The notes under the pieces are model-generated. The model did not search any database. It was not told where the DNA came from and saw only the letters and a program-made list of their open reading frames with translations. Source: Nymphaea colorata (taxonomy: Eukaryota > Streptophyta > Magnoliopsida > Nymphaeales > Nymphaeaceae). Taken from it: a stretch of DNA of 64,000 bases. The translations under genes were made by a program, and so were the position numbers. Of the stretch, positions 30,981-60,082 are shown piece by piece. The number at the start of each line of letters is the position of its first letter. The first letter of the stretch is position 1. The stretch is from assembly GCF_008831285.2 (NCBI RefSeq), contig NC_045148.1:15354802-15418801 (forward strand), read 5' to 3'.

Positions 30981-33900
30981 ATGCCATCTGAAGCTATGGG
31001 TGATACAGAGATACTGAGCTCTAAGCAGAGAGAAGAGATGGCAATAGGAGACAGAAGGCGGGCGCAACTTGTGCCACTTGCATCTTTGATCGGCAGGGAG
31101 TTGAGAAATGAGAAGATGGAGAAGCCTTGTGTAAAATATGGATGTGCTGCACAATCTAGGAAAGGGGAGGATTACTTCTTGGTGAAGACCGACTGTCAAC
31201 GAGTTCCAGGAAATGCTTCTACAAACTTTTCGGTTTTTGCTGTATGTGCTCTCCCACTTTGTCTTTGCTTGTATGTTCTGTAATTGCACTGGATGCTGGT
31301 TTTCCCTTCCGTCACTTTGGTGGTTTAAGACCATCTGCATCTAAAACTGGAAATGGCTATGCGCGAAACAGGAGGGAGACGTAAGACTGATATTGTCAGT
31401 TGGTTTTCAGATCTTTGATGGGCACAACGGGACTGCTGCAGCTATATTTACACGGGAAAACTTGTTGAATCACATTGTGGGTGCAATACCTCGTGGGCTT
31501 GGGAGGGACGAGTGGCTTCAAGCTTTACCTCGTGCATTGGTTGCAGGATTTGTAAAGACGGACAAGGAATTTCAGAGCAGAGGTAAGAAGATAGTTCTAC
31601 GTTCCCTGCTTATTTTGTTGCCATTGCCTTGTCTTGTGTCCATCTCTGAATACCGCAAGCAGTGATGTTACTGCATGAATGCCCATGTCTGGTCTCACTT
31701 ATTCCTTTCTGCAAGTGATTGAGATGCATGTTCATGCTTCAATGCCATGTACCGTTTATGGGTTGGTATGCTTATATTATCTGAGATTACTTTTTTATGA
31801 ATTTGGGCTACCAGGAGAGACTTCAGGAACTACCGTGACATTTGTAATAATTGATGGATGGACGGTGACGGTCGCTTCAGTAGGAGATTCACGTTGTATC
31901 CTGGACTCTCAAGGTGGCTGCATTTCGCTCCTCACTGTCGACCACAGGCTGGAGGAAAACGCAGAAGAGTAGGTGTTTTTCCTTATATTGTGTGTCGAGA
32001 AGGTTTTGGTTCCTCCAGTATGCTAAATCCTTTTGGTGTCTAATTGCATTTGTCAACTTAATTGTAGGAGGGAAAGGGTAACTGCAAGTGGCGGTGAAGT
32101 GGGAAGGCTGAGTCTGTTTGGTGGCTCAGAGGTACAGAAATTCTCAATGTTGACTCCCATTCATGTGATCATTGAGAACAAGAGGCATGGGTCATTTAAT
32201 AATGAAGCATGCATTTTTTAAACTGTTTTTATTGGTTAATCTTAGGCAATGGACATTCTGCAATTTATAATGTTTTTCACAGGTTGGTCCTCTTCGTTGT
32301 TGGCCTGGAGGTTTGTGCCTTTCAAGGTCGATCGGTGACATGGATGTTGGAGAGTTTATTGTTCCAATTCCATACGTTAAACAAGTAAAGGTACTTGGTT
32401 CTGCTGTCCAACCATTCTTTATTTTGATCAAACTGTGTTGAAGTTTCCTCCTTGTTTTTTAACTCTTTACATAGTTGCACCTCAACTTTCCTTTTTAGCC
32501 TTTTAGGTAAATTGCAAAACTCTACTTCTGTTTATTGCATAATCTTTGGGGTCTTGTGTCCTTGCACTGAGAACCTGTAATATTGTCATCTGTCTTACCA
32601 GCTATCGAATGCTGGTGGAAGGCTCATAATTGCTTCTGATGGCATTTGGGATGCTTTATCTTCTGAGATGGCAGCAAAGGCTTGCCGTGGGTTGCCTGCT
32701 GAGCTGGCTGCAAGACAAGTTGTTAAGGTACTGCTCTCTCTATATTTAATATTTGATAATTACATATCTATTTGTGCTTATTATGCATTATTTCTTCATG
32801 GTGTAAACATCAGGTAGGAAGAGTCTGCACAAGCCAAGAACTTTCTTTTACCATTTTTTTGATCAACTATTCTCCAACGGGAAGCAATGCATGACAACAC
32901 AAGTCTCGATTTTTCTTTCTTGTGTTGCTTATGTTGACATTTTTGCAGGAAGCTCTGCGATCAAGGGGTCTTAAAGATGACACAACCTGCATTGTTGTGG
33001 ACATAATCCCACCTGACCGTGCTGTTCCGCCCTCCTCTCCTCCAAAAAAGCAAAACAAACTGAAATCTCTCATCTTCAGAAAGAAATCACGAGATTCTGC
33101 AAATAAATTATCACAGAAGCTATCTGCTATAGGTATTGTGGAAGAGCTGTTTGAAGAAGGCTCTGCAATGCTTGCAGAAAGGTTGGTAGCTCCTGACCTT
33201 GTTAGAATCGGTTATAACTTTTTTGGAATAAAATTGAAAATTCCATAAAGGGAAATACTTCTGCTACGCTATGTTACTCCCTTTCTGTGGATGGTTTCAT
33301 AATTGAAGTTTGGATCTTCATTTTTGTTTTTGATTTCTCTGGATATTTTTGATATGATAATCTTTTGTATTTTTCTTTAGAAATTGCTGGTTTGAGGTTG
33401 TTTTGAATTTTTTTGCCCTTTAAATTGTTATCTCTTGCTAAGTTAGTGGATGCTATTGTCGTGAAGTTATTGTTCACGTCACAATCTAATCAATTGGGAC
33501 TAACTTTGTCTTTACTGCACCTAGAATCTGTATTTATGGACGATATATTTGGTATCTGCCTACAGCTGTTAAGGTTTGATCTTTTAGAACCATATAACAT
33601 CACCTTTTATTGTGTTATACGGTGTGGTGGCAACTGCATCGTGTCAATGTTAATGTTGGAAATAACTGATGTCAGTAGGAAATAAGAAGCAATACTAGAA
33701 GTGAAGGAAAAGTATTACCTAGCATAGACAATCAGATTCAAGGAAGTGGCATGAAGCGGTAGCTCAGATGAGAGCAGGGAAGCAAATTTTGAAGTGGGCA
33801 GGCCTGTGTGTGTGTGTGTGTGTGTGCCTGCAAAACTTGTTTTCTCCAGTTGATCTGTCTCACTGCATCGGTCTTCTCATTTGGTGCAAAAGCAAATTTT

Positions 33901-34726
33901 GGTATTTCAAGTGGAAAAAAAATCTTGTTTCCTCTCTTTAGCTTAAAATCAGAAATTCCTTTAAAACTTCCATTGTTCTGGCTTCTTTAGGCTTAAAAAG
34001 GAAAAAATCCTAGGTATGAGCTTCACTTAGAAATTTGTAGTGGACGTCTTAGTAGTTTACTGCTGTTCCCCATCTGAGAGATAGGCTATTTGAAGGTTGT
34101 GCTATTTAACTTCAGTGGTTTGCTTTACCTTAAAAGGGTTCTGATGTGCTTGCGCAAGAAGTTGTGGAATAAGCTTCATACGTTGGAAAATGGTCTGCCG
34201 CTCTCTTTGTTTCTCTTACTGTAGGAACTTTTCTGGACCACTTAGCGTGTAGAGATGCTTTAGCCTGCCATTGGGTTCTAAGCTGGAGTGGTCCAAATGC
34301 ATATCCTATTCTGCAGATCATCGTTGAAAACGACGTGTTAGATAGATGCATGTTATTTCGATTCAAAATAAGATGAAATGTACGTTTTTTATTGATTGGC
34401 CAAATAAAATTTCCCCTCTTGGACATGCAGTTTTTCTTCTGTTTTTTCCCTCACTGGTCTTTTTCTTTCTTAGTATTCAATTTTAGTAATTCGTATTGAA
34501 CATTTTCAGGTTGGGAAATGACTCGACATCCCAGACAACTGCTGGGTTGTTCACTTGTGCTATTTGTCAAGTTGATCTTGCTCCTAGTGAGGGTATATCC
34601 GTCCATGCCGGTTCCATTTTCTCAATGAGCTCAAAGCCATGGGAAGGCCCTTTTCTTTGTGCTGACTGCCGAATCAAGAAGGACGCGATGGAGGGTAAAC
34701 GGCCTAGTGGAGTCAAAGTAGTATAG
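30981..34726 (+). CDS. Protein phosphatase 2C, PP2C12-like (444 aa, eight coding exons)
   Basis: A Mg/Mn-dependent Ser/Thr phosphatase resembling Arabidopsis At1g47380 (PP2C 12). Exons: 30981-31241, 31411-31582, 31815-31968, 32068-32131, 32283-32390, 32602-32727, 32949-33181 and 34510-34726. They sum to 445 codons including TAG. Seen: KKGED-type N-terminal motif (RKGEDYF), FDGHNG metal site spanning exons 1-2, SGTTVTFVI, VGDSRCIL, GGLCLSRSIGDMDVGEF, ASDGIWDAL and KDDTTCIVVDI with the distal aspartates. The last exon adds a Cys-rich tail, CAIC...CADC, followed by KKDAMEGKRPSG, which is conserved in this PP2C branch and may bind a metal (inference). An in-frame ATG at 30996 is an alternative start with a better context. 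No frameshifts; this is the intact parent of the partial copy at 57.3-60.1 kb. A (GT)n tract lies in intron 7 at 33806-33825. Confidence 0.94.
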
Positions 34727-36640
34727 TCTTTCTCTCTCCCTCTCTCATTTTTTTTTTCTCCAAAGGTAACCCATTTTTCTGCACAGGCGAGTGTCTGATT
34801 TCACTTGGCTGACGTGGCAACCCGTGTATGTAATATTTTCCTTTTAATAATATAATGTCAGTGTGGATGAAGAGAAACTATGACATTTTGGGTATGATTT
34901 ATTCCATATATTCTTTGTAATTTTGAGATGAAAAATATATATGGATATCATAATTAAAAGATACGTTGACTAACCTTTGTTTGTTTCTTGGGTACTGGAC
35001 CTAAACATTTCATTGAACTCCGGTGAAGTAAATTTGGTAAATTTACTGACAGTGCAGAATCAGCCAGCTATAAAAGCATGCGCCAAGTCTTTGCCCCTAA
35101 AACTTGATTTTACATTTGGTGGTGTTTAGGAAGAAGCTTGGTCACTAGTGCATTTCCACGTGGAATTTATGTAGCTTCCTGGAGTATATCAAGAATAGGG
35201 AAATATTTGAAGAAAAGATGACATTTTTTGCAGGCGGAAATCAATAGGGGAGTTTCTGGTTTGTCCTTCTGTTCCCCCTCTGTTGATGAAATTCAAATGC
35301 AGGGTCTGCTTGAAAGACTCTTCTAATAAGCGTTTAGAAATGCGAATTGCGAGAGTGCAGATGCCTTTTCCGTCAAAGAGGTTGGACTTCGATGGCTTCA
35401 TCGACCCCATCCGATACTACAGTTGCTCTCTTCCCTCTTCAACCTTGGTTTATGGCTTGGCAGCCGGCACCGATGAACTTGGAAAAGCCTTAAAAAAGGA
35501 AGTGTTGCTTGGAGCTGGAGGGCATGTAGCTTCTTGGTCTGCCTGTTTTGCAGAGCCACCAGCTCCGTTCTGGAATCTACGGTGATCCAGACTGCCGATG
35601 CCCATCCACCACCATAAACAGGACTAAGGGGGGACGAAGTTGGTGGCAGGTGCCCTGTCTGGGTCAGGCTTCATGTCGACCTGCTTCTGCCATGTATGGC
35701 AGAAAATGCTAGCCAGTGTTCATGTCCGAACCAGGTAGGCAGAAAACCTTCTACGTTCACCTCTCTGGATCTTGCTTCACCTAAACGTTGACCCACCTCC
35801 AGGACCAACACAACAAGGTGGCCGTTGGGTTTCAGAGAAAGCAACAAGAAGGGTGGTTTGGGGTCAAAACTGTGGGGAGGGCGGGGTTCAAACATCATGG
35901 ACTCCCCACAACCGGGCAATCCTGTGGAGAAACTTCCCATGGCGTTGGCATTGAATATATTTTTTAAAGCAGAACAGCTAAGGGGGAATATGTGTCTGGC
36001 AGTGGGCCCTACCAACAGAACCATGGTCCCCAAATCAAGTCGAGGTGGGTCCGTAGTTCGTGTCCGGGTCCGGCCCATTTGCACCACTGGCGGTGACCCC
36101 ATATGGGTCAATAGAAAAAGAGTCTCCGTAGAGGTTTGCTTCCCGGGTGGTCCAGAGACGCACATGCGTTTCTCTCACCTTCTAATCATAGTCTTCGCAC
36201 ATGTCTGCAAGTGGGCATCAAATTCCATAAAAACATTGTTTCCGGCCACCGGAATCGTCGCCATCAACGCTTGTCCTGGAATCGGAATCAAATGGTCAAA
36301 TTGGGGCAGGACTCTTGAGTTGCCGTGAAGCTCAATCAAGCGCAATCATGGCTCTTGTTAGAAGGTAGTACGTCCGTCTTTCAAATTCTTACCATTATTA
36401 TTATTACTAGTAGTAGTATTTCCCTCTACAGCTCAACGAACTATCTGCTTATAGTTTTAATGTAGCTTTTGCTTTCATGGTGGATGTCAGATTTCTTGAT
36501 GTTCCAGCGAGAAGCGAGTGCCTGGTGAGCCACGGCTTGCCTTTCTACGCCGGTGGCAACTGCCGGCTAATTTCCCGTCGATCGGCCTTTTTCATGAGTT
36601 CTCCAGATTAACGAACGTTTCATTTTTAAACCGCATGATA
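32913..36640 (+). repeat. Segmental duplication, copy 1 (PP2C 3' end plus downstream flank)
   Basis: This block, from just before exon 7 through about 1.9 kb beyond the stop, recurs at 57295-60082 in the same orientation. In the other copy two internal parts are missing (about 33717-34390 and 34410-34669). From 34670 to 36328 the two copies align at a constant offset of 23447 with only two substitutions noticed (near 35459 and 35665). The flanking parts differ much more. Confidence 0.95.
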
Positions 36641-37168
36641 GGCGCCTTAGATTAATCTCCAATCGTTTGTGAAGTGTTAAAATTTTTGAATTTGTTTTGT
36701 CACACGGTCCTTTGAAATTAAAAAACGTTTGAATATCACCATTGAAGAAGGGAGACCAGTACCATTGTCATTACCTTCAATCTAGCTGAGCTTTCAGCGG
36801 CGGTACTTGAGGAGTAATTGTACAAGGGTAGGCTCCTGTTTGATGGTCGTCAGCAAAAGTATGGCGTGTTCAAAAAAATCAGAAAAACAAACAGCCTGTT
36901 TTTAAGAACATGTGGCTAAAAGATGATCTCCTATTATCAATTTCTGTGTTCCAACTTTTTCAGTATCCGTTTGTCCTTTCTACTGTGTAAGATTCTCCAG
37001 CCTGTACTTCACGAAGAAAGGAAATTTCACGACAGGAGGATGTTCATAGGGATGGATAGATGATCTGGTCTACAGAAAACCACCCAAATAGATCATAAGC
37101 CCCTTTAGCTTGATCGGTACTGGATTCATTCGAGCGATCTTTTTGCCAAGAAATTTTGATTTTAGGAA
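34727..37168. other. Intergenic region downstream of PP2C
   Basis: It contains the PP2C 3' flank, most of it inside the duplicated block. Long open frames overlap on both strands at 35671-36328 (164 codons minus, 167 codons plus), and 35283-35585 is open on plus. None resembles a known family and some lack an ATG. 36641-37168 shows nothing recognisable. Confidence 0.45.
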
Positions 37169-37173: not shown

Positions 37174-37544
37174 TGAAAACAAAAGAGAGACACTCGAGTT
37201 TAACGTGGTTCGGTACTCTACTCAAAAGTATGAGAGACACTTTAAATAATAAAGATTTTGTACAAGGAGATTTACATGCCATGTTTATCATATCAATCTC
37301 ATTGATTTCAGTATTGGGAATTACATCATTTTGAGAGATTTTAGGAAAGAAATTCTGGTTCATAACTGTTTTGGCTGGAACGTTATCTTTATCAGCCTGC
37401 ACGATGAGGTTCTTGGCAGCGCCAATCTCTTACTGATTGTCAGCTTCAATCTCTTACTGATTTTTAGCTTCAATATCTTTTTGGTTGGCACCGTCAATCT
37501 CTTCCTGATTTTTCTCATGTCTGGTTTGAGCCTTATCATTAACA
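37174..37544 (-). repeat. 3' LTR of the copia element
   Basis: 371 bp bounded by TG and CA on the plus strand. Compared with the other LTR it lacks about 42 bases in several short deletions near 37195-37245. It contains a decayed version of the 24-bp tandem repeat. Confidence 0.93.
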
Positions 37545-38161
37545 TTTCCCCTCAAACTTGTGGGGGATGCAATCCATACACCAAGTTTGTTGCGTAAATT
37601 TTCAAGTTGAAGTCGAGGCAGTGGTTTTGTAAAGATATGAGCAACTTGCTTAGTAGAGGGGATATATTTGGTAATGAGGGAGCCAATAGCAACTTTCTCC
37701 CGTACAAAATGACAATCTATATCAACATGCTTCATCCGTGAATGTAATGCTGATTTGATGGAAACCTGAAGGGCAGAAATATTGTCACAATATAATATTG
37801 GAGGTCGAGAGAGAGAGACTCCAATATCCCGCAGTATGTAGGTGAGCCATATGAGTTCAACGGTGGCGGATGCCATAGATCTATATTCAGCTTCGGTACT
37901 TGAGCGAGCGATAGAATTTTGCTTCTTCGCACTCCAGGAAATAGGATTAACACCAAGAAAAGTGCAAAATCTTGTTGTGGAACGTCTAGTGAGAGGACAT
38001 CTTGCCCAATCCGCATCAGAGTAGGCTAACAGTTCAATGGCTGAATTCTTCATGAGTCTAATCCCATAATCAAGAGTTCCATGAACATATCTCAATATTC
38101 TTTTAATCATAGACAAATGAGATGAAGTGGGATTTTGCATAAATTGGCTTACGTAATTCAC
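37454..38161 (-). pseudogene. Copia RNase H domain remnant, running into the 3' LTR
   Basis: Open frame with the copia RNase H features AYSDADWA (first Asp), EAEYRSMA and LYCDNISAL, then a KHVDIDCHFVREKV tail. The frame crosses the purine tract and continues into the LTR, where it reads NQEEI/NQKDI repeats before a stop at 37454. It is out of frame with the reverse transcriptase part. Confidence 0.9.
37545..37557 (-). other. Polypurine tract of the copia element
   Basis: On the minus strand the sequence GTTTGAGGGGAAA directly precedes the 3' LTR. This is the usual plus-strand primer position. Confidence 0.75.
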
Positions 38162-38162
38162 A

Positions 38163-38910
38163 CTATATGATATATCTGGTCATTGTAAGATATTGTAAGC
38201 CCCCTACGAAGCTTCTATACATAGTAGCATCAATTTCCACTGCGTCTTGAGTTGAGGATGGGCAAAAGTTTGTGACCATGGGTGTGGGCATATCTTTGAC
38301 ATTCAGTAGGTGAGCCTTATCAAGCAACTCATAGGCATATTTCCTTTGATTGAGGATCATATATTGATCTTTGAAGTGAGCATCTATGCCAAGGAAATCA
38401 TGAAAAAAGCCTAAGTCCTTCATGGCAAATTCTGAGCTGACTTGTGAAATAAAATCCTGTATTTGCTTTGTGTTATTTTCGGTAAGGATAATATCATCGA
38501 CATATAGTAGTAAAATAAGAATTCCCAGTGTATTTCGACACACAAAGAGAGACGGATGAGCAACACTTGCAAAAAATCCCAATGAGAGAAGAAATGTACC
38601 AAATCGATCATACCAAGCTCGAGGAGCTTGCATACGTGATCTGGTTTGATAGAATCCCAAAATCCAAGAGGTTGGTCTAGATAAACAGGTTCTTGTAGAA
38701 GTCCATGCAAAAAGACATTTTTGACGTCAAGTTGACGAATATCCCACGCATGATGAAGAGCAATAGATAGAACAATCCTAATAGTAGCAGGTTTTACCAC
38801 TGGGAAAAAGGTCTCAAGAAAATCTATTCCAGGAATTTGAGAAAAACCTTTAGCAACAAATCGAGCCTTAAGGCGCTCTACTGTTCCATCACTTCGTAGT
38901 TTTGTTTTGA
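38163..38910 (-). pseudogene. Copia reverse transcriptase remnant
   Basis: Two overlapping frames (38420-38800 and 38163-38660) carry VKPATIRIVLSIALHHAWDIRQLDVKNVFLHG and the catalytic YVDDIIL box. A frameshift near 38640 separates them. The part upstream of 38800 (to about 38910) continues the domain in another broken frame. Confidence 0.9.
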
Positions 38911-38914
38911 AGAC

Positions 38915-39815
38915 TCATTTGCTGCCTATAACATGCATGTCCTTGGAATAAGGAACCAAATCCCATGTATTATTATCATGAAGGGCTTGTATTTCTTCTT
39001 GCATGGCTCTCTTCCAGTTAGGGTCTTTGAGGGCTTCTTTGATGGAGCGAAGCTCTTGAGGAATAGAACAAGCAATAAAATATTTGGGATTCGGTTTCAC
39101 AATCCCATCCTTTGAACGAGTCACCATGGAATGAGAGTTGGTTGCTCTATTGTTGATGATGATCTCCAGCGTATTTTCAGCTCGATCATTGTTTGACATA
39201 TTTCCTTTGCCTTGTTCACCAGTAGGAGTGCCATCTAGCCCATGTGAGATAGTGTCACTTCTTGTTGCTGCATTCATATGTCCAAGACTATCATTGTTGG
39301 AGTCAATATTATTGACCATGTTTTCACTGTCTTGAGCGCTTGTGATAGTGCCATTCGGTGCATCTAGGATAGTGCCCATGGTGGTTTCCTCTTGAGTAGC
39401 ATTTGGCTGAATAGAGTCGGGAGTGGTGTCATCCGTTGTATTGGTCACCTGCATGCTCACTAAAATTTGTCACCTCTTGAGTCGAGTTCATGGGGAGAAA
39501 TAATTTGCTTGGCTGGTTGTACGGAAAATTTTTCTCATCAAATACAACATGTCGTGAAATGAATATTCTTTGAGTTGGTGGGTATAGACACTGATATCCC
39601 TTGTGTTGTTCCGAATAGCCAAGAAAAATACATGGTAAGCTTTTTGATTCAAACTTGTTCTTAGCGTATTCGCCAAGAAAAGAAAAACACTTGCATCCAA
39701 AGCTGCGAAAACTTGAATAATCAGGTTGTTTGTGAACTAATTTCTCATACGCCATGTCAAGTGTAGCCGAGGGAAGCCTATTTATCAACCATGCTGCAGT
39801 AGAGAACGCTTCCAC
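38915..39815 (-). pseudogene. Copia integrase C-terminal part and linker remnant
   Basis: 39429-39815 encodes the integrase C-terminal region typical of copia (AAWLINRLPS, FGCKCFSFL, KCIFLGYS-like CIFLGYSEQHKGY). 38915-39460 encodes the low-complexity linker and the start of the RT region (KEALKDPNWKRAMQEEIQALHDNNTWDLV). The two frames overlap, so there is a frameshift near 39445. Confidence 0.85.
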
Positions 39816-40982
39816 TCAAAAATGCATAGGAAGAGAGCTATGAAATAAGAGAGTGAGGCCAAGTTCAGTAATAGACCGATGACACCGCTCTGCCATCCCA
39901 TTTTGTTCAGGTGTTTTTGAGCAAGCCTTATAATAAGTAATACCACTAACCTTTAAATAGGATGCTAAATTTTCACCATTAAATTCCCCACCTTCATCAG
40001 TTTGAAAGATTTTAATCTTCCCATCAAACTGATTTCTAATCATAGCATGGAGTTCACAAAAAATCTTAAACAAGTCTGATTTGTTTTTCAAGGGATAGAA
40101 CCATATAAATCTTGTGCATTCATCAACAAAAACAGCATAATAACAAAACTTTTGATGAGAAGAAATCGATGCTGGCCCCCACAAAGCACAATGAATTCTT
40201 TCAAAAGGCACTTGAGAATGTTCTTCAACATCAAGAAAATGAAGTCTACTCATTTTTCCTAATTGACAACTCTCACAAACATGCATAATAGCATTTTTAG
40301 AGGAAACACTAATCTTATTTTGTTTCTCTAAGAAACTTATTACTTGAGAATGCGTATGCCCAAGTCTCTCATGCCACGTACTTCTGTCTGCAGACTTGAA
40401 TCGGCTTGAAAAAAGAGCTAGATGTCCTTCACGCTGGAGTCCATAGAGATCGCCAACTCTAGTTCCCGTTGCCACCATTTTGTTGCTCACTTGGTCCTTT
40501 ATGACAAAGCCGTTAGCATCAAACATAACAGAGTATGGCATATCAAACGTTAATTGACTCACTGAAAGAAGATTCTTTTTTATTTCCGGAATAACCAAGA
40601 CATTCTTTAAAGTGAGCATATGATTACGAGCAGAGACTTTGGCCATTTCAGTATGAGTAATAGAATGTTTTTCACCGTTGCCAACCATCACTTTTTCATT
40701 TCCATAATATTTTTGTATGGAATAGAGATTACCTGGATTATCCGTGATATGGTTGGTGGCGTCAGTGTCTGCAAACCAGGTTTGATCTTGTCCATCAGAA
40801 ATTTTGAGGGCAGCAAGAGCCGTTGGAACATCTTCAGCTTGGAAAGCTTGATTAAACCTGTGCCAGCAATTCAATGCCACATGATTTGGTTTACTGCAAA
40901 TTTGACACGTCATTCCCTTATAGGGATTTGGAGACCATGTCTCCTTTTTTGGATCTTCTTTGTTTTGAGAATTTTTGCTCAT
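39816..40982 (-). pseudogene. Copia zinc knuckle, protease and integrase core remnant (388 codons)
   Basis: The longest frame of the element. It has the CX2CX4HX4C zinc knuckle (CQICSKPNHVALNC) and a protease site read as WFADTDATNHI, where the usual DTG or DSG is DTD. The integrase HHCC zinc region (HERLGH, CESCQLGK) follows. Core acidic positions are visible in FVDECTRF, QTDEGGEF and TPEQNGMAE. A stop at 39816 cuts it from the integrase C-terminus. Confidence 0.93.
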
Positions 40983-41141
40983 ATTATTGCTAGCTTGAGG
41001 GAAGTCTCTCCCTGTTGAATTGAAATGATGCCTATTGTTTTTATTGTACGTGCGTGGCTGCTGGTTTTAGTGTACGACAAAGGCTGAATGATGATTTATT
41101 CCTGCCTCTTTAGCATGAAGTGCGCGCATGGTTTCATGTGC

Positions 41142-41779
41142 CTATAATAGTGCAACAACTTCAGTGTATTGCATGGTGGGAGGTCGTGTGAGCATGGAGG
41201 TGACAAACGCTTCATAACCACTCCCTAAGCCATTTAATAACCAGAACACCTTGTATTGATCAGAAATAGGCTTACCTATGGCAGCCAACTCATCACAAAT
41301 AGCCTTGAACTCTCTTAGATATTGCAAAACAGATAGATCTTTTTTTCGATGAAGCTGTAATCGTTGGGTCAACAAGAATTCACGCTCTTTGATTCATGAG
41401 CAAAAGCAGTAATAAGGGCATCACAGACTTCTTTTGAAGTCTCCAAACCAACGACTAAACCAAGAACCTCTTCAGAGAGAGTTCCGGTGATCCATCCCCT
41501 CAATAAACAGTCTGATTTCTTCCATTCAAGAAAATCAACATTCGCAATAAACTCATTATTGCTACTTATAAATTCAGCAGGCTTGGGATGATTCCCATTA
41601 ATAAAGCCACACATGTTCTGACTTTCAATAAGGCCAAGGAGCTGAGTCTTCCACAATAGGAAGTTCGATTGAGTCAGCTTCAATGAAGCGAAATTTGCGA
41701 CATTTAGATTATAGGGATAAGGGTACTTAGCTTCTCTGGAGGCTTCTATATTCTGCTCTTCGAGTAAAACACACGCCAA
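41142..41779 (-). pseudogene. Copia gag remnant
   Basis: The translation (LTQSNFLLWKTQLLGLIE..., LQYLREFKAICDELAAIG, FWLLNGLGSGYEAFVTSML) is the copia gag (UBN2-type) domain. A frameshift lies near 41372 and a stop at 41142. The nearest upstream ATG (41801) is one base out of frame. Gag is therefore broken at several points. Confidence 0.9.
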
Positions 41780-42562
41780 TAGTTAGTGCAGAGAAAGACA
41801 TTCTGAAATCTGTTGCAGGAAGCTCTCAAGTGACAGTCGACCTTTTAAAATCCGTAACTCCTCAACCGCTGCTTCAAAAATTGTGAAACTTGGTAGGAAT
41901 GATCTTCACAAGTAGACGATTTTAAAAAGCCCTTGCTCGACACTTGTTGTCGCCGGAGCTGACAATGCCGGTCGCTGGAATCTGGCACAAATTCAGAGTT
42001 CACAGAATCGCAGGAACAGGCCCAGAAATGAGAGCCAGGTGGAAAAATTATGATTCCGGCCTACTCCAATCATGAAAAAATATGACTTGTGGAGATAACG
42101 CTGGTCGATTGATCAGAGGCTAAAATCAGCAATACTCTGTTCATAGAATCGCAAGAACAGAAATGAGAGGCGGTCGGAAAATTTATGATTCCGGCCTGCT
42201 CCTGTCACCGAACAGGTCGAGTATGGAGGCGTTGGAACCGCAACAGAGAGGCGGTCCTTCTTGTAAAATTTCAGGCTGAAAGATCTCCTGAGGAGATAAC
42301 GCCGGATGATGGAATGAAAAGGCGATAAGCACTTGTCCTTTTCTTCCTGTGTTCAATAGGCGATAGACAAAAAATTTGAGCACTCTTCCTTGGTGCTTCA
42401 AAAATTTTGTAAAGGCTCTAGAAAGATCTGTAGGTACTCAGGAGTTGTTTGAAGTCCTGCTCGATAGCTCCAAGAAGCAATATTGAATGGCGCAGTAGAA
42501 GTCGTCGTCGTGAGATGGAAACCTCTTTGTTCTTCCTCTGATTCACGACTGCTTCAAGACAC

Positions 42563-42574
42563 GCTCTGATACCA
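42563..42574 (-). other. Primer binding site, tRNA-iMet type
   Basis: On the minus strand TGGTATCAGAGC directly follows the 5' LTR. This is the standard copia PBS complementary to the 3' end of initiator tRNA-Met. Confidence 0.92.
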
Positions 42575-42987
42575 TGAAAACAAAAGAGAGACACTAGAGA
42601 GAGCACAATTTAACGTGGTTCGGTACTCTATACCTACGTCCACAGTAGCTCTCAAAAGTATGAGAGATACACTATCTCCATCCTTTAAATAATACAGATT
42701 TTGTACAAGGAGATTTATATGCCATGTTTATCATATCAATCTCCTTGATTTCAGTATTGGGAATTACATTATTTTGAGAGATTTTAGAAAAGAAATTCTG
42801 GTTCATAACTGTTTTGGCTGGAACGTTATCTTTACCAGCTTGCACAATGAGGTTCTTGGCTGCGCCAATCTCTTCCTGATTTTCAGTTTCAATCTCTTCC
42901 TGATTTTCAACTTCAATATCTTTCTGATTGGCAGCGTCAATCTCTTCCTGATTTTCCTCATGTCTGGTTTGAGCCTTATCGTTAACA
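42575..42987 (-). repeat. 5' LTR of the copia element
   Basis: 413 bp with TG...CA ends and the fuller of the two LTRs. It carries four 24-bp tandem units at 42858-42953, in an open minus-strand frame. Confidence 0.93.
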
Positions 42988-46853: not shown

Positions 46854-47330
46854 TCTCTTAAAATGTAGTGCTTGCGTGAGTTATATTATTTGAAACTTTT
46901 TTCTTTGTATAAAAATATAATGCAATAAAATATAGTGTTTCGGTAAGCTATAATGTTTAATACATCATTTTTTCTTTGTATAAAAATAGAATGCATTCAT
47001 TAATTTACGGTTTTGCTCTATATTGCAAGACGACACTCATCATCAGCTGAGATTCTCCACTTAAAATGGTTTTTGTCAAAAACAATGTTTGTTTTTTGCA
47101 CGTATTAGAGTAATTGCAAAGATCTGCCCTTAAATAGAACAACTTGTTGTTTCAACAATATCACAGGCTTAGTTTGACTAAGCTCTTAAAATATGGCTGT
47201 TTGATACTTTTTCCTTTGTATGGAAATAGAATACGTTAAAATATGGTGCTTTTGAAGCTTTTGTATAGAAATAGAATTTTTTTTTTTTTTACTGCTTTGC
47301 TATGTATTGCAAGCTAACACTTTGATATGT
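46854..47330. repeat. ~400-bp repeat family member (AT-rich)
   Basis: It shares diagnostic words with the array at 56041-57294. Examples are cttaaaatgtagtgcttgcg, ctttgtataaaaatagaatg, attgcaagacgacact and tttcaacaatatcac, in the same order. About one and a third units are present. No coding capacity. Confidence 0.75.
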
Positions 47331-48856: not shown

Positions 48857-48858
<2 letters not shown>

Positions 48859-48905: not shown

Positions 48906-48907
<2 letters not shown>

Positions 48908-50885
48908 TAGTCAGTTTTACACGCACAACAGAGTGAATGGGCAGTAGTGAGAGAAAGAGAAAAAGCGGCAAAGAGACCGGATGGCCGAGGGTCGAATTGA
49001 AATCCATACTTTGTCGGACGCTGTTGGCATTGCGGATTTCAGATACACTAAAAACCTCAGATTTGAGGTCCGACTAAGTTGGGAGGGAAAATGGTTGGAT
49101 CTCTTACCATGGCTAAAGGGTGCAACTTTGTTCATCGACTCTGTGCTTGGAATTAAGACTCCCATCCCTTATTCCGGCTGTCGTACATTTCGTTCTCATT
49201 TCTTTATATTGTTTCTGTATTCTGAAAGGAATCCAATTTGCATCAAACTGAATCAAAAAGAGAAAAAAAAACACCTTCTATTGTGGGGAATTCATTTGCT
49301 TCTGCAACGATGGGCCACACGATAAAGACTGCAACGACAGTAAGTCATTTATTTCTTCCTCATCTTCTTCGTCATTTACCTTTTCCTCTTGTTTCCTTCA
49401 TTTGTTTGCTTTCCTTTCACCCCCGCGCCTTGTTGGCGACAATCGATAGTTCCTTTGAAACTCGACGCGTGTTTCATTGGTCTTTTCCTCTTGTCCGGAG
49501 GTTGGAATTGGGGACGTTGGTGGGGTTTACATTTCGCTGGGAATTTGGGGATGTTGGTGGGGCGCCAATTTCCTGTGAATTCGGAATTTCATTTTTATCC
49601 CCCATGGCTTCCCCTCTTTTTCTGTTCTTTGTTTCGACGCCAAACACAATGGGGTCACCCGGAATGACAGAGTAGCTTTCCTGTATATGAATATTAGACA
49701 TTGCATCTTCAATATACATGATATTCTGAAAATGATACCTTTTATCAAATTGAAATATCGTGGTGGAGTCGTCCTGTGACATGGGAAGCATTTGGGAGGT
49801 CTTGGACTAGTTTTAAAGATCTCATTTTCAAGAACATGTGAACCGTTGAAAAACTGGTTTTCTTCGGAAAATGTCGAGGAGACATATATGAAAGAAGTTA
49901 AAGTGTTAAAACATAAGGGGAATGTTATGAGCTGTTTTAGCGAGGGATAATTTTCCTACATGCCGACCTTTTCATCATCATGAATGACGTTAGTGCTTTT
50001 GAGTTTTGATTATAAAATTCAACACATTGCTAATGTACATGCCAATTGTCTACTTACTTCTCTCTGGTTTATTAATTATTGACATCCTTGTTACACACAT
50101 GGAACATGGAACTGCTATCTAGTTTATGTATTTATTTGAATGTGAAATCTTTTGTTTCTACCTAGTCATTGTGAAGTTCCGAAATACGAGCCATAAGAAA
50201 ATTGTGCATCACTGTGACTTTAATTGGATGGGATGGGGAGTTTGTTTTGTTTGGCGCGGGGTGTTTTGTGGAAGAGGAGATGGGGTGCTGGGAAATATTT
50301 TACAGGCGCATGAGGGTCTGTTTGCAGGCTACCGTCATAAGGGTTTCTATGAGATCCTAAAAGATTTGCCATCTAGGTGCCCAACCTTCCTTTGTACCTT
50401 AACCTCCAAAAATTATCGTATTGTGAACGCTTTCACAATCTCCCGGTCTTGTTTGGCCGCTAATCTTATCAAACAGAGCCCAAAACTAGTGGTTGACAAG
50501 CTTCAGGGATGCAGTGCTTCTCTGATGCATTTTATCTGACAAACCATGAGTGTGCTTGAGAAAAGTTAAGCCACATGCAAGCCATTTTCCAGTTCAAGAA
50601 ATTTTCGACCCTTTCCTATCCATGTTTTCAATCTGCATTGATTTGTTTAACTTTGGTGCCCAAGTGTAGTCCTGTGCTGTACAGGTTAATAACTCTTTGT
50701 TTTTGATTCTTTGAAACGGGAGACTTTGTTGTTAGCGCTGTGTTCACGAGTTTGGTACCAGAGACATCTGTTCTGTTCATATGGTTGTCATGGTCTTTTC
50801 AAGCACCTAACGTGTCATCTCATCGACTGTTGCTTCAATCATGGGTGAGAGCGGGAGAGAAATGGCTCGTTTCAAAGAACATAGG

Positions 50886-51004
50886 GTAGTTAAAAATCAA
50901 TTCTTCTTCAGTGACATCCTGCCGATGGTTCTGAATCAGTTGCAGTACCCCAAGAAACCATGAATGTGAAGGTGGTTGCATCACACACTGGAAAGTCAGC
51001 AGAT

Positions 51005-51035
<31 letters not shown>

Positions 51036-51200
51036 AGATTTATGTGCAGGATCAGAGAGCAGTTAGAAATCAATTCTTCTTTAGTGGCATCCTGCCAACG
51101 GATCTGAATCAGCTTTACTAACAGATTTACCAATCCCTGTTAATTAACAAGAAACAGTGATTGTTGAGGTGGTTGCGTCGCATACCGAAGAGTCAGCAGT
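50886..51200. repeat. Diverged direct duplication around a (GA)n tract
   Basis: 50886-51004 and 51060-51200 share gttaaaaatcaattcttctt-like starts, then catcctgcc, tctgaatcag, gaggtggttgc and gtcagcag, in the same order. A (GA)n tract at about 51006-51034 lies between them. Confidence 0.7.
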
Positions 51201-51524
51201 CTGCACCTAACACTCTAGGATTAAAGATTTAAAGTATCGTGAGACGGAATATTACATATGAAGAAGCTTAAACTAGATAAGCAAGGCATGATTTCAACCA
51301 TCTGCTACCATTTTCCGGCAGTTTTTCTGAATGAATCGTAGCATCTGATCATTGGTTCGATACATTATGCTCCGATGTCCAGATCCTCATGCCTTGGATA
51401 TACAAAATCAGGTGGACAAGTGAAGCTTACACGGAGAAATTTACATGTTATGAGAACGACTTTTGATTGTAACCTAGCAGCGAACTTTAGTTTTTGGTTG
51501 CACATGGGTCTAATATCTTCCGAG

Positions 51525-52724
51525 TGCTACGCTGCAGGCCTGCAAAATTTGATTGTTTCAATATGCAATCATTCACCAATAACATGACGATACTTCGAAT
51601 TTTTGTACATTTGACAAATGGATTTGCAGCGAGATGCTTGCTTCCATTCCTAGCTGTTTGTTATCGTTTTTTGCTGTTTACTTTTGACACTTGTTACAGT
51701 TGATTATCTATATAATGAGTTGTGCAATGTCTGAATACTTTAATGTTTCCAAATCCAGGAAATGGCGGGATGATCAAAGTAATTATAGGTAAGCATCTGC
51801 AGCATTTATTTGTTACAGTGTGTGTCCTGTTTACTCTACATCAAAATGGCCCCTCAAAGGCTCAAATACAAGCCCATCCCTTAGCCCAGGCCTGCTTGGA
51901 GTTAATTTACTAACTCTTAAACAGTTGACATGGTAGCATAACCATGGCATTTTGGTATCCATGGACCACCACAAAACATTCTGATTTGCTGGGGCTGTCC
52001 AAAGCCCTAAGCATTGGAGAAAGTCACTACAGAAAAACGGAATTCTTCTGTTTTTCTGCCATGCATGAGTATTAATCTTCTTTTTTATGTGCACAGGCGT
52101 GGTTTCAGCTGCTGGCAGTTTTCTCCTGGCAATCGTAGGTTTCTTCATCTGGCGCTGTCTTGGTAAGAAAAGAACACCTTCCTCCAAGCGATTCTTAACT
52201 CGATCCTTTTCGTCCTCCAAAACCTCAAGCACAATTGACATGGAAAGCAGAAGCTTCCACCAAAGGTGTGCTGGCCGTGTCACAATCTTCACATACAAGG
52301 AGCTGGAAGAAGCCACCCACAATTTCAGTCCCTCAAATGAGCTTGGTGATGGAGGATTTGGTGCAGTCTATCTTGGAAACCTTCATGATGGTCGTAAAGT
52401 GGCTGTGAGAAAACTTTATGAGAACAACTACAAGCGCGTTGAGCAATTCAAGAATGAAATTGCCATCCTTTCTGGCATCAGCCACCCAAATCTTGTTTGC
52501 CTCTATGGATGCACTTCGCGACATAGCAGGGAGCTGCTTTTGGTATATGAGTATGTGAACAATGGGACAGTTGGAGACCATATTCATGGCATGCGTTCCA
52601 GTGGAGGGCATCTGACATGGAAGGTGAGATTGAACATAGCTATTGAAACTGCAGAGGCATTAGCCCATTTGCACGGGCTTGAACCACCAATCATTCACAG
52701 GGATGTAAAGACCAACAACATACT
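51525..52724 (+). repeat. Left arm of a 1.2 kb inverted duplication
   Basis: 1200 bp nearly identical to the reverse complement of 53134-54336, with about 409 bp of single-copy kinase sequence between the arms. The outer breakpoint is clear: homology ends at tgctac (51525), and sequences beyond differ. The inner breakpoint is after 52724. Confidence 0.95.
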
Positions 52725-52770
52725 TCCTCCATTGTTGGCCTTATTTCCCTCTCTTGTACCAAACACCTGA
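51759..52770 (+). pseudogene. Truncated LRK10L-type receptor kinase copy (plus strand)
   Basis: A 30-bp mini-exon (51759-51788) and a kinase exon from 52097 encode the transmembrane segment VVSAAGSFLLAIVGFFIW, a juxtamembrane region, and the kinase N-lobe. The N-lobe includes the glycine loop GDGGFGAVYLG and ends at IIHRDVKTNNIL. At 52725 the sequence switches to antisense of the other copy's kinase, and the frame ends at 52770. There is no DFG motif and no C-lobe, and the extracellular exons are absent upstream. The invariant VAVK lysine position reads VAVR. It cannot encode a working receptor. Confidence 0.9.
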
Positions 52771-53133
52771 ATGTCAGCTCCGCAACAGCTCTTACAGTTC
52801 GATTCACCCACTCATCAGTCTCAAACTCAAGTGAAGAATCAATAAATTCATGCAATTCATGATTGTTGATCTTATTAACGGCCAAATTTGCAAGATTTAT
52901 CTCATGCCTGTGCCGTCTGATATCAACAGCAGGCAACGAAGAGATTAATTCTGCAAGTACTACACCAAAACTGTAAACATCACTTTTTTCCGTTAACTGG
53001 TAGCACTTGTGATAGTCAGGATCAACATAGCCGGGTGTCCCCTGAGGAGCAGTTGAGACATGCGTCACGTCAAGTGGGAATAAGCGTGACAGGCCAAAGT
53101 CCGCCACTTTAACATGGAAATCTCTGTCAAGTA

Positions 53134-54336
53134 GTATGTTGTTGGTCTTTACATCCCTGTTAATGATTGGTGGTTCAAGCCCGTGCAAATGGGCTAATGC
53201 CTCTGCAGTTTCAACAGCTATGTTCAATCTCACCTTCCATGTCAGATGCCCTCCACTGGAACGCATGCCATGAATATGGTCTCCAACTGTCCCATTGTTC
53301 ACATACTCATATACCAAAAGCAGCTCCCTGCTATGGCGCGAAGTGCATCCATAGAGGCAAACAAGATTTGGGTGGCTGATGCCAGAAAGGATGGCAATTT
53401 CATTCTTGAATTGCTCAACGCGCTTGTAGTTGTTCTCATAAAGTTTTCTCACAGCCACTTTACGACCATCATGAAGGTTTCCAAGATAGACTGCACCAAA
53501 TCCTCCATCACCAAGCTCATTTGAGGGACTGAAATTGTGGGTGGCTTCTTCCAGCTCCTTGTATGTGAAGATTGTGACACGGCCAGCACACCTTTGGTGG
53601 AAGCTTCTGCTTTCCATGTCAATTGTGCTTGAGGTTTTGGAGGACGAAAAGGATCGAGTTAAGAATCGCTTGGAGGAAGGTGTTCTTTTCTTACCAAGAC
53701 AGCGCCAGATGAAGAAACCTACGATTGCCAGGAGAAAACTGCCAGCAGCTGAAACCACGCCTGTGCACATAAAAAAAGAAGATTAATACTCATGCATGGC
53801 AGAAAAACAGAAGAATTCCGTTTTTCTGTAGTGACTTTCTCCAATGCTTAGGGCTTTGGACAGCCCCAGCAAATCAGAATGTTTTGTGGTGGTCCATGGA
53901 TACCAAAATGCCATGGTTATGCTACCATGTCAACTGTTTAAGAGTTAGTAAATTAACTCCAAGCAGGCCTGGGCTAAGGGATGGGCTTGTATTTGAGCCT
54001 TTGAGGGGCCATTTTGATGTAGAGTAAACAGGACACACACTGTAACAAATAAATGCTGCAGATGCTTACCTATAATTACTTTGATCATCCCGCCATTTCC
54101 TGGATTTGGAAACATTAAAGTATTCAGACATTGCACAACTCATTATATAGATAATCAACTGTAACAAGTGTCAAAAATAAACAGCTACAAACGATAACAA
54201 ACTGCTAGGAATGGAAGCAAGCATCTCGCTGCAAATCCATTTGTCAAATGCACAAACATTCAAAGTATCGTCATGTTATTGGTGAATGATTGCATATTAA
54301 AGAAACAATCAAATTTTGCAGGCCTGCAGCGTAGCA
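53134..54336 (-). repeat. Right arm of the 1.2 kb inverted duplication
   Basis: Reverse complement of 51525-52724 with few differences, three bases longer overall. It includes the mini-exon, its intron and the first two thirds of the kinase exon. Homology stops at gtagca (54336). Confidence 0.95.
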
Positions 54337-54740
54337 ATGACTGATCCCCGTCTTCATGCTCCCAAAAAATCTGGAAGGCTTAGCTGTAGAATGCTAACAC
54401 GTACTAAAAGAGTTTACAAAGGAAAAAAAAAGCATTCAATCTAAATGTATAAAATGGTCCTTTTACCAGGCATTATGCACCGAATACCCCAAGATTTTTT
54501 TCCAGATGCAAAACTCATGGGTGATGGTTCATGAAGGTAAAGATGGTCTCAACAACGTCATGCTGGATTTGTCATCAACATGTGAAACATTAAGAAACCT
54601 CAAACCAAGGAGGGTCCAAAGAGCAGTTTTAAGTTTTGTCTACAGAGTAGGTCTAAGTAAATCAACAAGTATAATGGGCAGCACCATGGTCCATGGAGGA
54701 CATGTGCCAGGAGAAGATATCATGCACAAGTGAACACCTG

Positions 54741-54742
<2 letters not shown>

Positions 54743-54771
<29 letters not shown>
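54743..54771. repeat. (CT)n microsatellite in the receptor-kinase intron
   Basis: About 14 CT units followed by a C-rich stretch. Confidence 0.88.
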
Positions 54772-54774
<3 letters not shown>

Positions 54775-55377
54775 CCACCCCCTCTCTTCTCTCCACACAT
54801 ATAGGTCCAGTTATGTAGAACGAAGTCAATTTTTTTAGACTTTCTCAGGGCTGGGAAAACAGCTTTCTAGGACAGGCTGGGTTGACCACGAAAGCACTTA
54901 CACATGATCCTGTTCCATTACGGTGACTATGCTAATCTATGCGAATACACCCTCCACAAATGGGCAGAACCACCTAATAAAATCAGTGAGTACAGGTGTC
55001 CTTCCAAATAGAAAGTAAAATTATATTGCGCCCACTGGTGTAATTTGTGCGGTCAAGGTGGAAGCTATGATAGTAACAGAACTCGACAGTAAAGAGCATA
55101 TCAGGCTACCTGCAGATTTTGAAGATGATCCATCAGAACAATTTTTAGGGTGCACTCCATCTTTGCAGTAACAAGCAGGGGCATCATGTTCTCCAAATAT
55201 ACACTGGCCCCCACTGGTATTACATTTGAGGCAATCGAACCACCAGCGAAGAAAAAATCCACCACTCAATATGGCAAAAGGTTTGCAGACTTGGACTCCT
55301 CAACACCAGCAGGGATTTCATACATAGGACAATTGATGCGATGGGCATCATCAGGCAGCTTTATCTGTTCCTGTGGA

Positions 55378-56040
55378 CTGTAATAATAATACAGAAAAGA
55401 GCCATCAACACAGCCTTTTCTCTTCCATGAGGACGGAGGTTGCAGATGTCATCTTGAGAGGTAGAGACATTTCGATGGAAAGGTAGTAGAAAGAGAGCAC
55501 AATCGAGCAAATGAGTTCAGGAAAGAAAAAAAGGGTGTCACATCCTCACGAAGATTTTCAGAGAACCAGCTAGACTGGTCCCTAAATCTACTAAAGCACT
55601 CTATCAAATGCAAAAAGAAACTTTAATGGTTAGTGTTAATTAACACATTTGTAATAAACAGTCTAGATTAAGAACTAATTATTGAGTCAATACTTTGAAA
55701 TTAACACACTATATATATATATATACCTGCAGAAACATTATAACCATGTTGCCTCAGAGTTCTGAACCGAACTGAAGATGAGTAGAGGTCATATTTCCAT
55801 GTACTTGGCTGGTATCTTGAAGACATCCTTTGAGCAGCAGACCTACCGCAGCCCTCAGCCCTAGGCTCACATCTCACAAGGGTGGTGCTCCATGGCTTGA
55901 AGTCAGCCTTAGCACTATGAACAAATTTGAAAGGAGCAATGAAACGAGTGGGAAGGCAAGCAAGATGAAGAGCCATCAAAACCAATACGATATTGCGAGA
56001 AGCGTGTGTTCACTCTCGAATGACTACCATAAGACTGATT
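55378..56040 (-). other. Upstream part of the minus-strand receptor-kinase copy
   Basis: It should hold the signal-peptide and first extracellular exon. The minus-strand frame 55985-55741 begins with a hydrophobic stretch (MALHLACLPTRF) and ends at a possible donor, but lacks the GUB_WAK Cys pattern. A (TA)n tract lies at about 55710-55725. Confidence 0.3.
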
Positions 56041-57294
56041 TCCTAGCTTATATAGTGTTGCATTTTGAGTGTACATTGAGTGTCTATAACAGTTAGACAA
56101 TTTCAATACGATTCAACCTCTTAAAATTTGGTATTTGCGTAAACTATGAATGTTGGATGATTTTTTCTTTATATATAAATATATAATGCATTAAAATATG
56201 TATAGTATTTGAGTAAGTTAAAATTATTTGGTACTTTCTTTTCTTTGCATACAAATAGAATGTATTAATTCTTTACACTTTCGATGTGCACTAAAACCTC
56301 ACACTTATCAACTGATGTTCGCTATTTATATCAATTTTATCTAACATGTTTATTTTTGCAAATATTTGAGTAATTGCGCATCCATTTCCAAGTAGTGCAA
56401 TTTGTCATTTCAACAATATTACATATTTGTTCATTAGATTATACAAAGTTGCATTCGAGTGTATGCTGTGTGCCTATAATAGTTGAGAGAATTGCAACAA
56501 CAGCCTATCTCTTAAAATGTAGTGCTTGCGTGAGTTATAATTGTTTGATACTGTTTCCTTTGTATAAAAATAGAATGTATTAAAATTTTTTGACATGTTT
56601 ACTTTTGCAAATATAATTGTTTGATATTCAGTTATAATTTTAAAAAGCACCAGCCACTTTTAAAGAAATGGAATATGGTGATATTTTTTTTCTTTGTATA
56701 GAAATGGAAGACATTCATTCTTCATGGTTTCTTGTGATGTAAAAACCAACAACTGACGTTTGCTACTTAAAGTGGACATTATAAAAAACTATGTTTACTT
56801 TTAGCAAATATTTGAGTAATTACGCAGCCCACCTTTGAGTAGTGCAACTTGCCATTTCAACAATATCACATGTAGGTTTGCAAAATTATACAAAGTTGGA
56901 TTAAGTGTACATTGTGTGTCTATAATAGTTGAGAAATTTCAATGAGGACCAACTTCTTAAAATGTAGTGCTTGCGTGACTTATTATCGTTTGATTTTTTT
57001 TCTTCCTATGCAAATATAATGCATTAAAGTATGGTGCTTTCGTAAGTTATAATTGTTTGATACTTGTTTTCTTTATATAAAAAATATAAAAATAGAATGT
57101 ATTTGTTCATCACGATTTTGCTACGCATTGCTGGCCGTGACACTTATTAGCCAATGTTCTCCAATTAAAATAATTTTTATCGATATTTAGAAACCATCTT
57201 TTTGCTATGCATTGCAAGACGACACTTATCAGCTGAGATTTTCCACTTAAAATGGTTTTTATCAAAAACAATGTTTGTTTTTATCAAAAACAAT
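56041..57294. repeat. Degenerate tandem array of a ~400-450-bp AT-rich unit
   Basis: About three units begin near 56110, 56510 and 56955. Each contains cttaaaatgtagtgcttgcg-like, ctttgtataaaaatagaatg-like, aaatatttgagtaattgcgc-like, tttcaacaatat and ctataatagttgaga words, in order. The last unit is partial and ends in a doubled tatcaaaaacaatg just before the PP2C copy. Related to 46854-47330. No coding capacity. Confidence 0.8.
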
Positions 57295-60082
57295 GTCTTT
57301 CTTGTGATGCTTATGTTGTCATTTTTGCAGGAAGCTCTGCGATCAAGGGGTCTGAAAGATGACACAACCTGCATTGTTGTGGACATAATCCCACCTGACC
57401 GTGCTGTTCCACCCTCCTCCCCTCCAAAAAAGCAAAACAAACTGAAATCTCTCATCTTCAGAAAGAAATCACGAGATTCTGCAAATAAATTATCACAGAA
57501 GCTTTCTGCTATAGGTATTGTGGAAGAGCTGTTTGAAGAAAGCTCTGCAATGCTTGCAGAAAGGTTGGTAGCTCCTGACCTTGTTATAATCGGTTATAAC
57601 TTTTTTTGGAATAAAATTGAAAATTCCATATAGGGAAATACTTCTGCTATGCTATGTTACTCCCTTTCTGTGGATGGTTTCAAAATTGAAGTTTGGATCT
57701 TCATTTTTGTTTTTGTTTTCTCTGGATGTTTTTTATATGATAATCTTTTGTATTTTTCTTTAGAAATTGCTGGCCTGAGGTTGTTTTGATTTTTTTTTTT
57801 CCTTTAAATTGTTATCTCTTGCTAAGTTAGTGGATGCTATTGTCGTGAAGTTATTGTTCACGTCACAGTCTCATCAATTGGGACTAACTTTGTCTTTACT
57901 GCGCCTAGTATCTGTATTTATAGATTATATATTTGGTATCTGCCTACAGCTGTTAAGGTTTCATCTTTTAGAACCATATAACATCACCTTTTATTGTGTT
58001 AGACGGTGTGGTGGCAACTGCATCGTGTCAATTTTAATGTTGGAAACTTGGAAATAACTGATGTCAGTAGGAAATAGGAAACAATACTGAAAAGTATTAT
58101 TGATTGGCCAAATAAACGAATCAAGAAGGACGCGATGGAGGGTAAACGGCCTAGTGGAGTCAAAGTAGTATAGTCTTTCTCTCTCCCTCTCTCATTTTTT
58201 TTTTCTCCAAAGGTAACCCATTTTTCTGCACAGGCGAGTGTCTGATTTCACTTGGCTGACGTGGCAACCCGTGTATGTAATATTTTCCTTTTAATAATAT
58301 AATGTCAGTGTGGATGAAGAGAAACTATGACATTTTGGGTATGATTTATTCCATATATTCTTTGTAATTTTGAGATGAAAAATATATATGGATATCATAA
58401 TTAAAAGATACGTTGACTAACCTTTGTTTGTTTCTTGGGTACTGGACCTAAACATTTCATTGAACTCCGGTGAAGTAAATTTGGTAAATTTACTGACAGT
58501 GCAGAATCAGCCAGCTATAAAAGCATGCGCCAAGTCTTTGCCCCTAAAACTTGATTTTACATTTGGTGGTGTTTAGGAAGAAGCTTGGTCACTAGTGCAT
58601 TTCCACGTGGAATTTATGTAGCTTCCTGGAGTATATCAAGAATAGGGAAATATTTGAAGAAAAGATGACATTTTTTGCAGGCGGAAATCAATAGGGGAGT
58701 TTCTGGTTTGTCCTTCTGTTCCCCCTCTGTTGATGAAATTCAAATGCAGGGTCTGCTTGAAAGACTCTTCTAATAAGCGTTTAGAAATGCGAATTGCGAG
58801 AGTGCAGATGCCTTTTCCGTCAAAGAGGTTGGACTTCGATGGCTTCATCGACCCCATCCGATACTACAGTTGCTCTCTTCCCTCTTCAACCTTGGTTTAT
58901 GGCTTGGCAGTCGGCACCGATGAACTTGGAAAAGCCTTAAAAAAGGAAGTGTTGCTTGGAGCTGGAGGGCATGTAGCTTCTTGGTCTGCCTGTTTTGCAG
59001 AGCCACCAGCTCCGTTCTGGAATCTACGGTGATCCAGACTGCCGATGCCCATCCACCACCATAAACAGGACTAAGGGGGGACGAAGTTGGTGGCAGGTGC
59101 CCTGTCTGGGCCAGGCTTCATGTCGACCTGCTTCTGCCATGTATGGCAGAAAATGCTAGCCAGTGTTCATGTCCGAACCAGGTAGGCAGAAAACCTTCTA
59201 CGTTCACCTCTCTGGATCTTGCTTCACCTAAACGTTGACCCACCTCCAGGACCAACACAACAAGGTGGCCGTTGGGTTTCAGAGAAAGCAACAAGAAGGG
59301 TGGTTTGGGGTCAAAACTGTGGGGAGGGCGGGGTTCAAACATCATGGACTCCCCACAACCGGGCAATCCTGTGGAGAAACTTCCCATGGCGTTGGCATTG
59401 AATATATTTTTTAAAGCAGAACAGCTAAGGGGGAATATGTGTCTGGCAGTGGGCCCTACCAACAGAACCATGGTCCCCAAATCAAGTCGAGGTGGGTCCG
59501 TAGTTCGTGTCCGGGTCCGGCCCATTTGCACCACTGGCGGTGACCCCATATGGGTCAATAGAAAAAGAGTCTCCGTAGAGGTTTGCTTCCCGGGTGGTCC
59601 AGAGACGCACATGCGTTTCTCTCACCTTCTAATCATAGTCTTCGCACATGTCTGCAAGTGGGCATCAAATTCCATAAAAACATTGTTTCCGGCCACCGGA
59701 ATCGTCGCCATCAACGCTTGTCCTGGAATCGGAATCAAATGGTCAAATTGGGGCAGGACTCTTGAGTTGCCGTGAAGCGCAATCATGGCTCTTGTGGTTA
59801 GAAGGTGGTACGTCCGTGCTGCAAATTCTTATCATTATTATTATTAGTAGTAGTAGCACTTCCCTATACAGCTAAACCAACTATCTACGTGTAGTTTTAA
59901 TGTGGCTTTTGCTTTCATGGCGGATGTCAGATTTCTTGATGTTCCAGCGAGAAGCGAGTGCCTGGTGAGCTACGGCTTGCCTTTCTACGCTGGTGGCAGC
60001 TGCCGGCTAATTTCCCGTCGATCGGCCTTTTTCATGAGTTCCCGATATTAACGAACGCTTCATTTTTGAACCGCAGGATATG
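57295..60082 (+). pseudogene. Partial copy of the PP2C gene 3' end and flank (segmental duplication, copy 2)
   Basis: It starts 36 bases before exon 7 (57331-57563 corresponds to 32949-33181) and includes the acceptor. Exon 7 stays open, with five substitutions seen, of which one changes the protein (Gly to Ser). Intron 7 is copied to about 58098. A short island (58099-58116) from about 34391-34409 follows, then at 58117 the last 57 bases of exon 8 including the TAG (58171-58173) and the 3' flank to 60082. The start of exon 8 and its acceptor are missing, as are exons 1-6. It cannot make a phosphatase. Sequence from 58117 to 59775 is almost identical to the parent, unlike both edges. Confidence 0.95.

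Follow-up and report, generated by a model that had tools for sequence, protein, structure and literature searches.

In a 64,000-nucleotide stretch of the Nymphaea colorata genome (RefSeq assembly GCF_008831285.2, contig NC_045148.1, positions 15,354,802 to 15,418,801; hereafter the window), we examined two copies of the 3' end of a PP2C-type protein phosphatase gene. The copies form a mosaic in the assembly: a nearly identical core is bordered on both sides by colinear homology that is clearly diverged. We consider it very probable that an old partial duplication of the gene's 3' end was later overwritten in its core by ectopic gene conversion, acting in cis between linked copies and without crossover. 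That is, the segment from exon 7 to about 1.9 kb beyond the stop codon would have been duplicated downstream in direct orientation, and the non-coding DNA of the duplicates would then have diverged by roughly 5–6%. Long afterwards, one copy would have suffered a break and been repaired, without crossover, on the template of the other; the 1.66-kb tract overwritten in this way would since have gained two substitutions. The repair mechanism is what we infer from this pattern.

Comparison of the window with itself returned the pair in direct orientation (34670–36640 with 58117–60080, and 32914–33702 with 57296–58095), about 23.4–24 kb apart on the same contig (C11). The original prediction had placed the duplicate blocks at 32913–36640 and 57295–60082 and divided them into three zones, and our alignments recovered these almost to the base, the homology of copy 2 ending at 60080. 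The left diverged zone (copy 1, 32913–33717; copy 2, 57295–58099; both on the plus strand, as are all parts of the two copies) spans the end of intron 6, exon 7 and the first part of intron 7, and differed by 33 substitutions in 796 aligned bases (alignment of 32913–33718 with 57295–58101). Within it, exon 7 differed at 5 of 231 aligned bases (2.2%) and intron 7 at 25 of 527 (4.7%) with five gap openings, against predicted values of about 5 in 233 and 25 in 535. The core (34670–36327 and 58117–59774) takes in the final 57 bases of coding sequence, stop codon included, and continues through the 3' untranslated region into downstream DNA. Only two substitutions were found in its 1658 bases (0.12%), C–T at 35464/58911 and T–C at 35664/59111, and there were no indels; the prediction had been two substitutions and no indels in 1659 bp. 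The right diverged zone (36328–36640 and 59775–60080) differed at 25 of 303 bases (8.3%), inside the 5–10% expected beforehand, and also by a 10-bp and a 3-bp indel. The first of these is a 10-bp tandem unit at the start of the zone in copy 1 (36328–36337) that is absent from copy 2.

The unevenness of divergence was pronounced. Counts of differences per 50 bases were 0 or 1 across the core and rose again on either side. A run-length permutation test, which stood in for GENECONV as the test of conversion, placed the 60 substitutions at random over 2757 aligned bases in 20,000 permutations. The observed runs with at most zero, one and two differences were 794, 994 and 1687 bases long, and each was matched in 0 of the 20,000 permutations. 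A two-change-point scan, in which the left zone was one base shorter (59 substitutions in 2756 bases), chose the same segment, with 2 differences in 1705 bases inside and 57 in 1051 outside (difference in log-likelihood, dLL, 48.1). The core also differed from the rest in a Fisher test (p = 1.8e-21), and the ratio of its divergence to that of the non-coding flanks was 0.020 (95% interval 0.002–0.075), making it about 50-fold closer. These results bear out the earlier claim of non-uniform divergence with sharp steps.

These data do not suit one duplication with the same age throughout, because the step is two-sided and colinear diverged homology lies outside it. Functional constraint on the core, for example through a regulatory or untranslated RNA element, could in principle freeze a region that comprises the 3' untranslated and downstream part of a PP2C gene. 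However, purifying selection is a poor explanation because core divergence lies far below that of the non-coding flanks and below that of coding exon 7: the two changes fall in 1658 mostly non-coding bases, and copy 2 is a gene fragment. A scan of the window against Rfam at gathering scores gave no match, nor did a Pfam scan of three open reading frames (ORFs) in the core. We regard constraint as highly improbable. Cytosine deamination in methylated flanks was also considered as a source of the contrast and was rejected, since the flank substitutions were not dominated by transitions (15 transitions and 18 transversions on the left, 15 and 10 on the right).

Genome-wide searches with the core, left and right parts as queries covered all 783 contigs (407,766,735 bases) of the assembly. 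Each query listed only the two places described here, repeat counts in these searches being lower bounds, so the copies are apparently each other's sole partner; the searches found neither a third copy that could have acted as donor nor a separate haplotype contig. Taken together, the two-sided step, the colinear diverged flanks, the lack of a third listed copy and a core closer than the exon are best fitted by an old duplication followed by a later conversion tract, as originally proposed. Copy 1, the fuller one, was probably the donor and the broken copy 2 the recipient, the tract itself being unpolarised. In exon 7, paralogues on contigs C8 and C10 shared the copy 1 base at two of the five differing sites (32972 and 33159). 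Because both paralogues carry that base, the changes at these two sites are assigned to the copy 2 branch; the other three sites were left unused, as the paralogue codons differ from both copies. This polarity has no bearing on the direction of transfer in the core, and the paralogues align in exon pieces only and do not reach the non-coding core.

The original prediction had offered, as an alternative to conversion, two exchanges of different age. Under such a history, the left, core and right zones would each derive from their own event, and the higher divergence of the right zone relative to intron 7 points that way, with a marginal difference (25/303 versus 25/527, Fisher p = 0.049). However, divergence in the outer part of the right zone (9/159) was indistinguishable from that of intron 7 (p = 0.68). 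The excess comes from the inner part (16/144, with triplet runs; zone counted from 36338), but this split was not significant (p = 0.10), and neither flank alone showed an unusual run in the change-point and run analyses. Several exchanges are therefore not needed, and we judge them improbable. As a separate observation, 16 of the 25 right-zone substitutions fall at 36367–36481, over triplet runs that adjoin the end of the tract.

A different concern is an assembly error: read correction, polishing or a local mis-join may have put one copy's core sequence in place of the other's. Two points favour it. The genome report, in the part available (PMC7015852), describes an assembly built from PacBio RSII reads (5.5 million, 49.8 Gb) by Canu self-correction, Arrow and Pilon, and a second pair in the window, an inverted repeat, is mosaic as well. 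Against this, the window contains no N and thus no marked scaffold gap between the PP2C copies, the mean read of about 9 kb is longer than either block, and the flanks retain 4–8% divergence with a step that is sharp and not graded. Six pairs of kinase paralogues at 2–3% divergence elsewhere in this assembly had, in their main alignments, longest runs of 366–605 bp, with no homogenised interior of kilobase size. We think an assembly artefact unlikely, if less so than the other alternatives.

The second mosaic pair is an inverted repeat of a receptor-kinase-like gene (51525–52724 on the plus strand and 53133–54336 on the minus strand), with 10 substitutions in 1200 bases and Pfam Pkinase matches on ORFs of both arms; the plus arm is a truncated kinase copy. 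Its interior is free of substitutions over 839 bases, with a single-base indel in a T run inside, and its edges carry 7 substitutions in 157 bases (outer) and 3 in 204 (inner). The outer edge stood apart both from the run as a whole (p = 2.2e-6) and from its 415 bases upstream of the kinase exon (p = 1.1e-4). With the relative L008 as outgroup (C11:15224906–15227405), five of the seven outer changes fell on the truncated plus arm and two on the other, and of the three inner changes two fell on the plus arm and one on the other. This repeat looks like a second local conversion, as far as its alignment can tell.

Because the kinase mosaic could mean a shared artefact, we applied the run test to other alignments of the assembly. 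Controls were alignments of at least 600 bp and at least 85% identity among nine assembly loci and positions 50001–56000 of the window. These gave 28 rows, or 27 after removal of the window's own inverted repeat; L029–L030 and L030–L031 are one comparison counted twice, and one more row, L029 with L031, had no differences, being the same DNA taken twice, and was left out. Many of the 27 share members and are not independent. The longest run with at most two differences among them was 605 bp, versus 1687–1705 bp in the PP2C pair.

Several points weigh against gene conversion. Divergence was also uneven in 7 of the 27 controls (run p <= 0.05), three of them at p <= 0.0010, although their runs were much shorter (183, 221 and 605 bp in those three); this unevenness probably arises in part from the contrast between exons and introns. 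A second mosaic pair so close by could signal a shared local artefact as well as a conversion-prone tract. The tract, at 1.66 kb, is long against the 4–1237 nt reported in rice (see below). A local assembly or correction error may also have occurred, and for the tract both non-reciprocal transfer and its direction are presumed.

Judged from its reading frames and their relatives, copy 1 belongs to a PP2C-type gene, of which it forms the 3' end, and that gene is likely intact. Pfam matched PP2C on an upstream ORF (31679–31972, E = 3e-8). Exon 7 of copy 1 (32949–33181), an open frame, had no match of its own in the Pfam scan, and aligned at 39–44% to paralogous loci elsewhere in the genome. The ORFs at 32271–32438, 32581–32814, 32895–33245 and 34490–34723 align to paralogous loci on C8 and C10, with identities of 39–92% by piece and 51–63% in another comparison. 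Intron 7 (33182–34509) is followed by the last exon (34510–34726, stop codon TAG at 34724–34726), which also aligns to the C8 and C10 paralogues. The borders of both exons were read from the sequence, and the exon number follows the original prediction.

Copy 2 lacks two segments of copy 1 directly to the left of its core, 33718–34391 (674 bp) and 34409–34669 (261 bp). The first lies within intron 7; the second takes the end of that intron (34409–34509) and the first part of the last exon (34510–34669). What copy 2 retains is an exon 7 relic (57331–57563) with the start of intron 7, a 17-bp island (58100–58116, equal to 34392–34408 of copy 1) between the two deletions, and then the core and right zone. 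With neither the start of the last exon nor the acceptor site before it, copy 2 is a gene fragment. Insertion into copy 1 at 34409–34669 was considered and set aside, since the 5' part of the last exon located there aligns to paralogues, and the difference is read as a loss from copy 2. For 33718–34391, the difference may be a loss from copy 2 or a gain in copy 1; the query 32800–34669 listed no further place in the genome, so no repeat was visible to the search there. The deletion junctions in copy 2 show a 3-bp microhomology (TTA) on the left and are blunt on the right.

The ends of the tract coincide with these structural differences. The tract begins on the left exactly where the 261-bp deletion stops, and on the right it ends exactly at the extra 10-bp tandem unit of copy 1, so that in either direction the first difference outside it is an indel, a pattern that was noticed post hoc. 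Ends bounded in this way would fit conversion limited by heterology that was already there, or a single one-sided repair that produced deletions and tract together. With only 17 bp between them, the two large deletions suggest one complex junction with copied filler more readily than two accidents. A further, tentative suggestion is that a single scar accounts for both deletions, the 17-bp island and the 1.66-kb tract, and that the neighbourhood, with its PP2C pair and kinase inverted repeat, would be a site of repeated template-switch repair. A break in copy 2 would then have led to one-sided invasion of copy 1 from the right, followed by leftward synthesis over 1.66 kb, a jump of 261 bp, the copying of about 17–20 bp and final end-joining at the 3-bp microhomology. 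The tract does end at a non-homologous junction with a deletion (261 bp, in copy 2), as in one-sided repair. If such a single event did occur, the locus would preserve the footprint that one-sided repair had left naturally in a plant genome.

Repeats adjoin copy 2 on both sides, and repeat counts from the genome search are lower bounds. Directly to its left lies an AT-rich, tandem-like repeat (56000–57294). The search listed at least 137 matches to it, spread over many contigs, of which the three highest-scoring outside this place are all on C11; parts of the repeat recur at 46835–47242. The right zone of copy 2 abuts a short dispersed AT-rich repeat (60080–60146), for which a query from 60081 listed at least eight other places. 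Three of these relatives were realigned to 54500–62500; two of them begin at 60080, the last homologous base of copy 2, and elsewhere the three gave only matches to simple or low-complexity repeats. Capture of copy 2 by a mobile element was considered and rejected, as no element was seen to span it. Between the PP2C copies lies a Ty1/copia-type element on the minus strand (37240–42987; Pfam Pol_BBD, gag_pre-integrs and rve on 39816–41066). Its long terminal repeats, a 305-bp repeat near the element ends, differ uniformly at 20 of 305 positions and in this resemble the old flanks of the PP2C pair. At the start of the window, positions 1–80 form an 80-bp inverted self-match of about 94% identity.

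A generic rate for plants is about 6.5e-9 substitutions per site per year. On this uncalibrated rate, the flanks would be about five million years old and the tract about 0.1 million years old (0.01–0.3). Of the dating figures, only the ratio of core to flank is robust. Dating the duplication by its core would underestimate its age about 50-fold. The pair offers a clean natural case, with two copies found in the assembly, in which a kilobase tract resets the apparent age of a duplicate.

Among the listed publications on gene conversion or tandem duplication in Nymphaea, judged by titles and the starts of abstracts, nothing on this locus was found. The closest comparison is with rice, where a GENECONV survey, in the portion available (PMC2277409), reports conversion tracts of 4–1237 nt (mean 130) and gives an intra-chromosomal conversion distance of about 35–40 kb for rice and Arabidopsis. 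As in the linked rice paralogues of that portion, the PP2C pair has a high-similarity tract within lower-similarity flanks, both copies lie on the same chromosome at a distance (about 23.4 kb) inside the reported range, and one partner, here copy 2, is pseudogene-like. Unlike the cases described there, the PP2C tract is 1.66 kb long and mostly non-coding, and just two copies were found to exchange.

One-sided invasion repair leaves a tract with one homologous end, while at the other end a deletion is joined through a short island and microhomology, and the PP2C tract resembles this in its geometry; in contrast to that system, the deletions and the copying here may or may not belong to one event. 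The case leaves the understanding of gene conversion itself unchanged. Most likely, the PP2C pair illustrates well how ectopic gene conversion acts on linked duplicates, an event of a known kind with a long tract.

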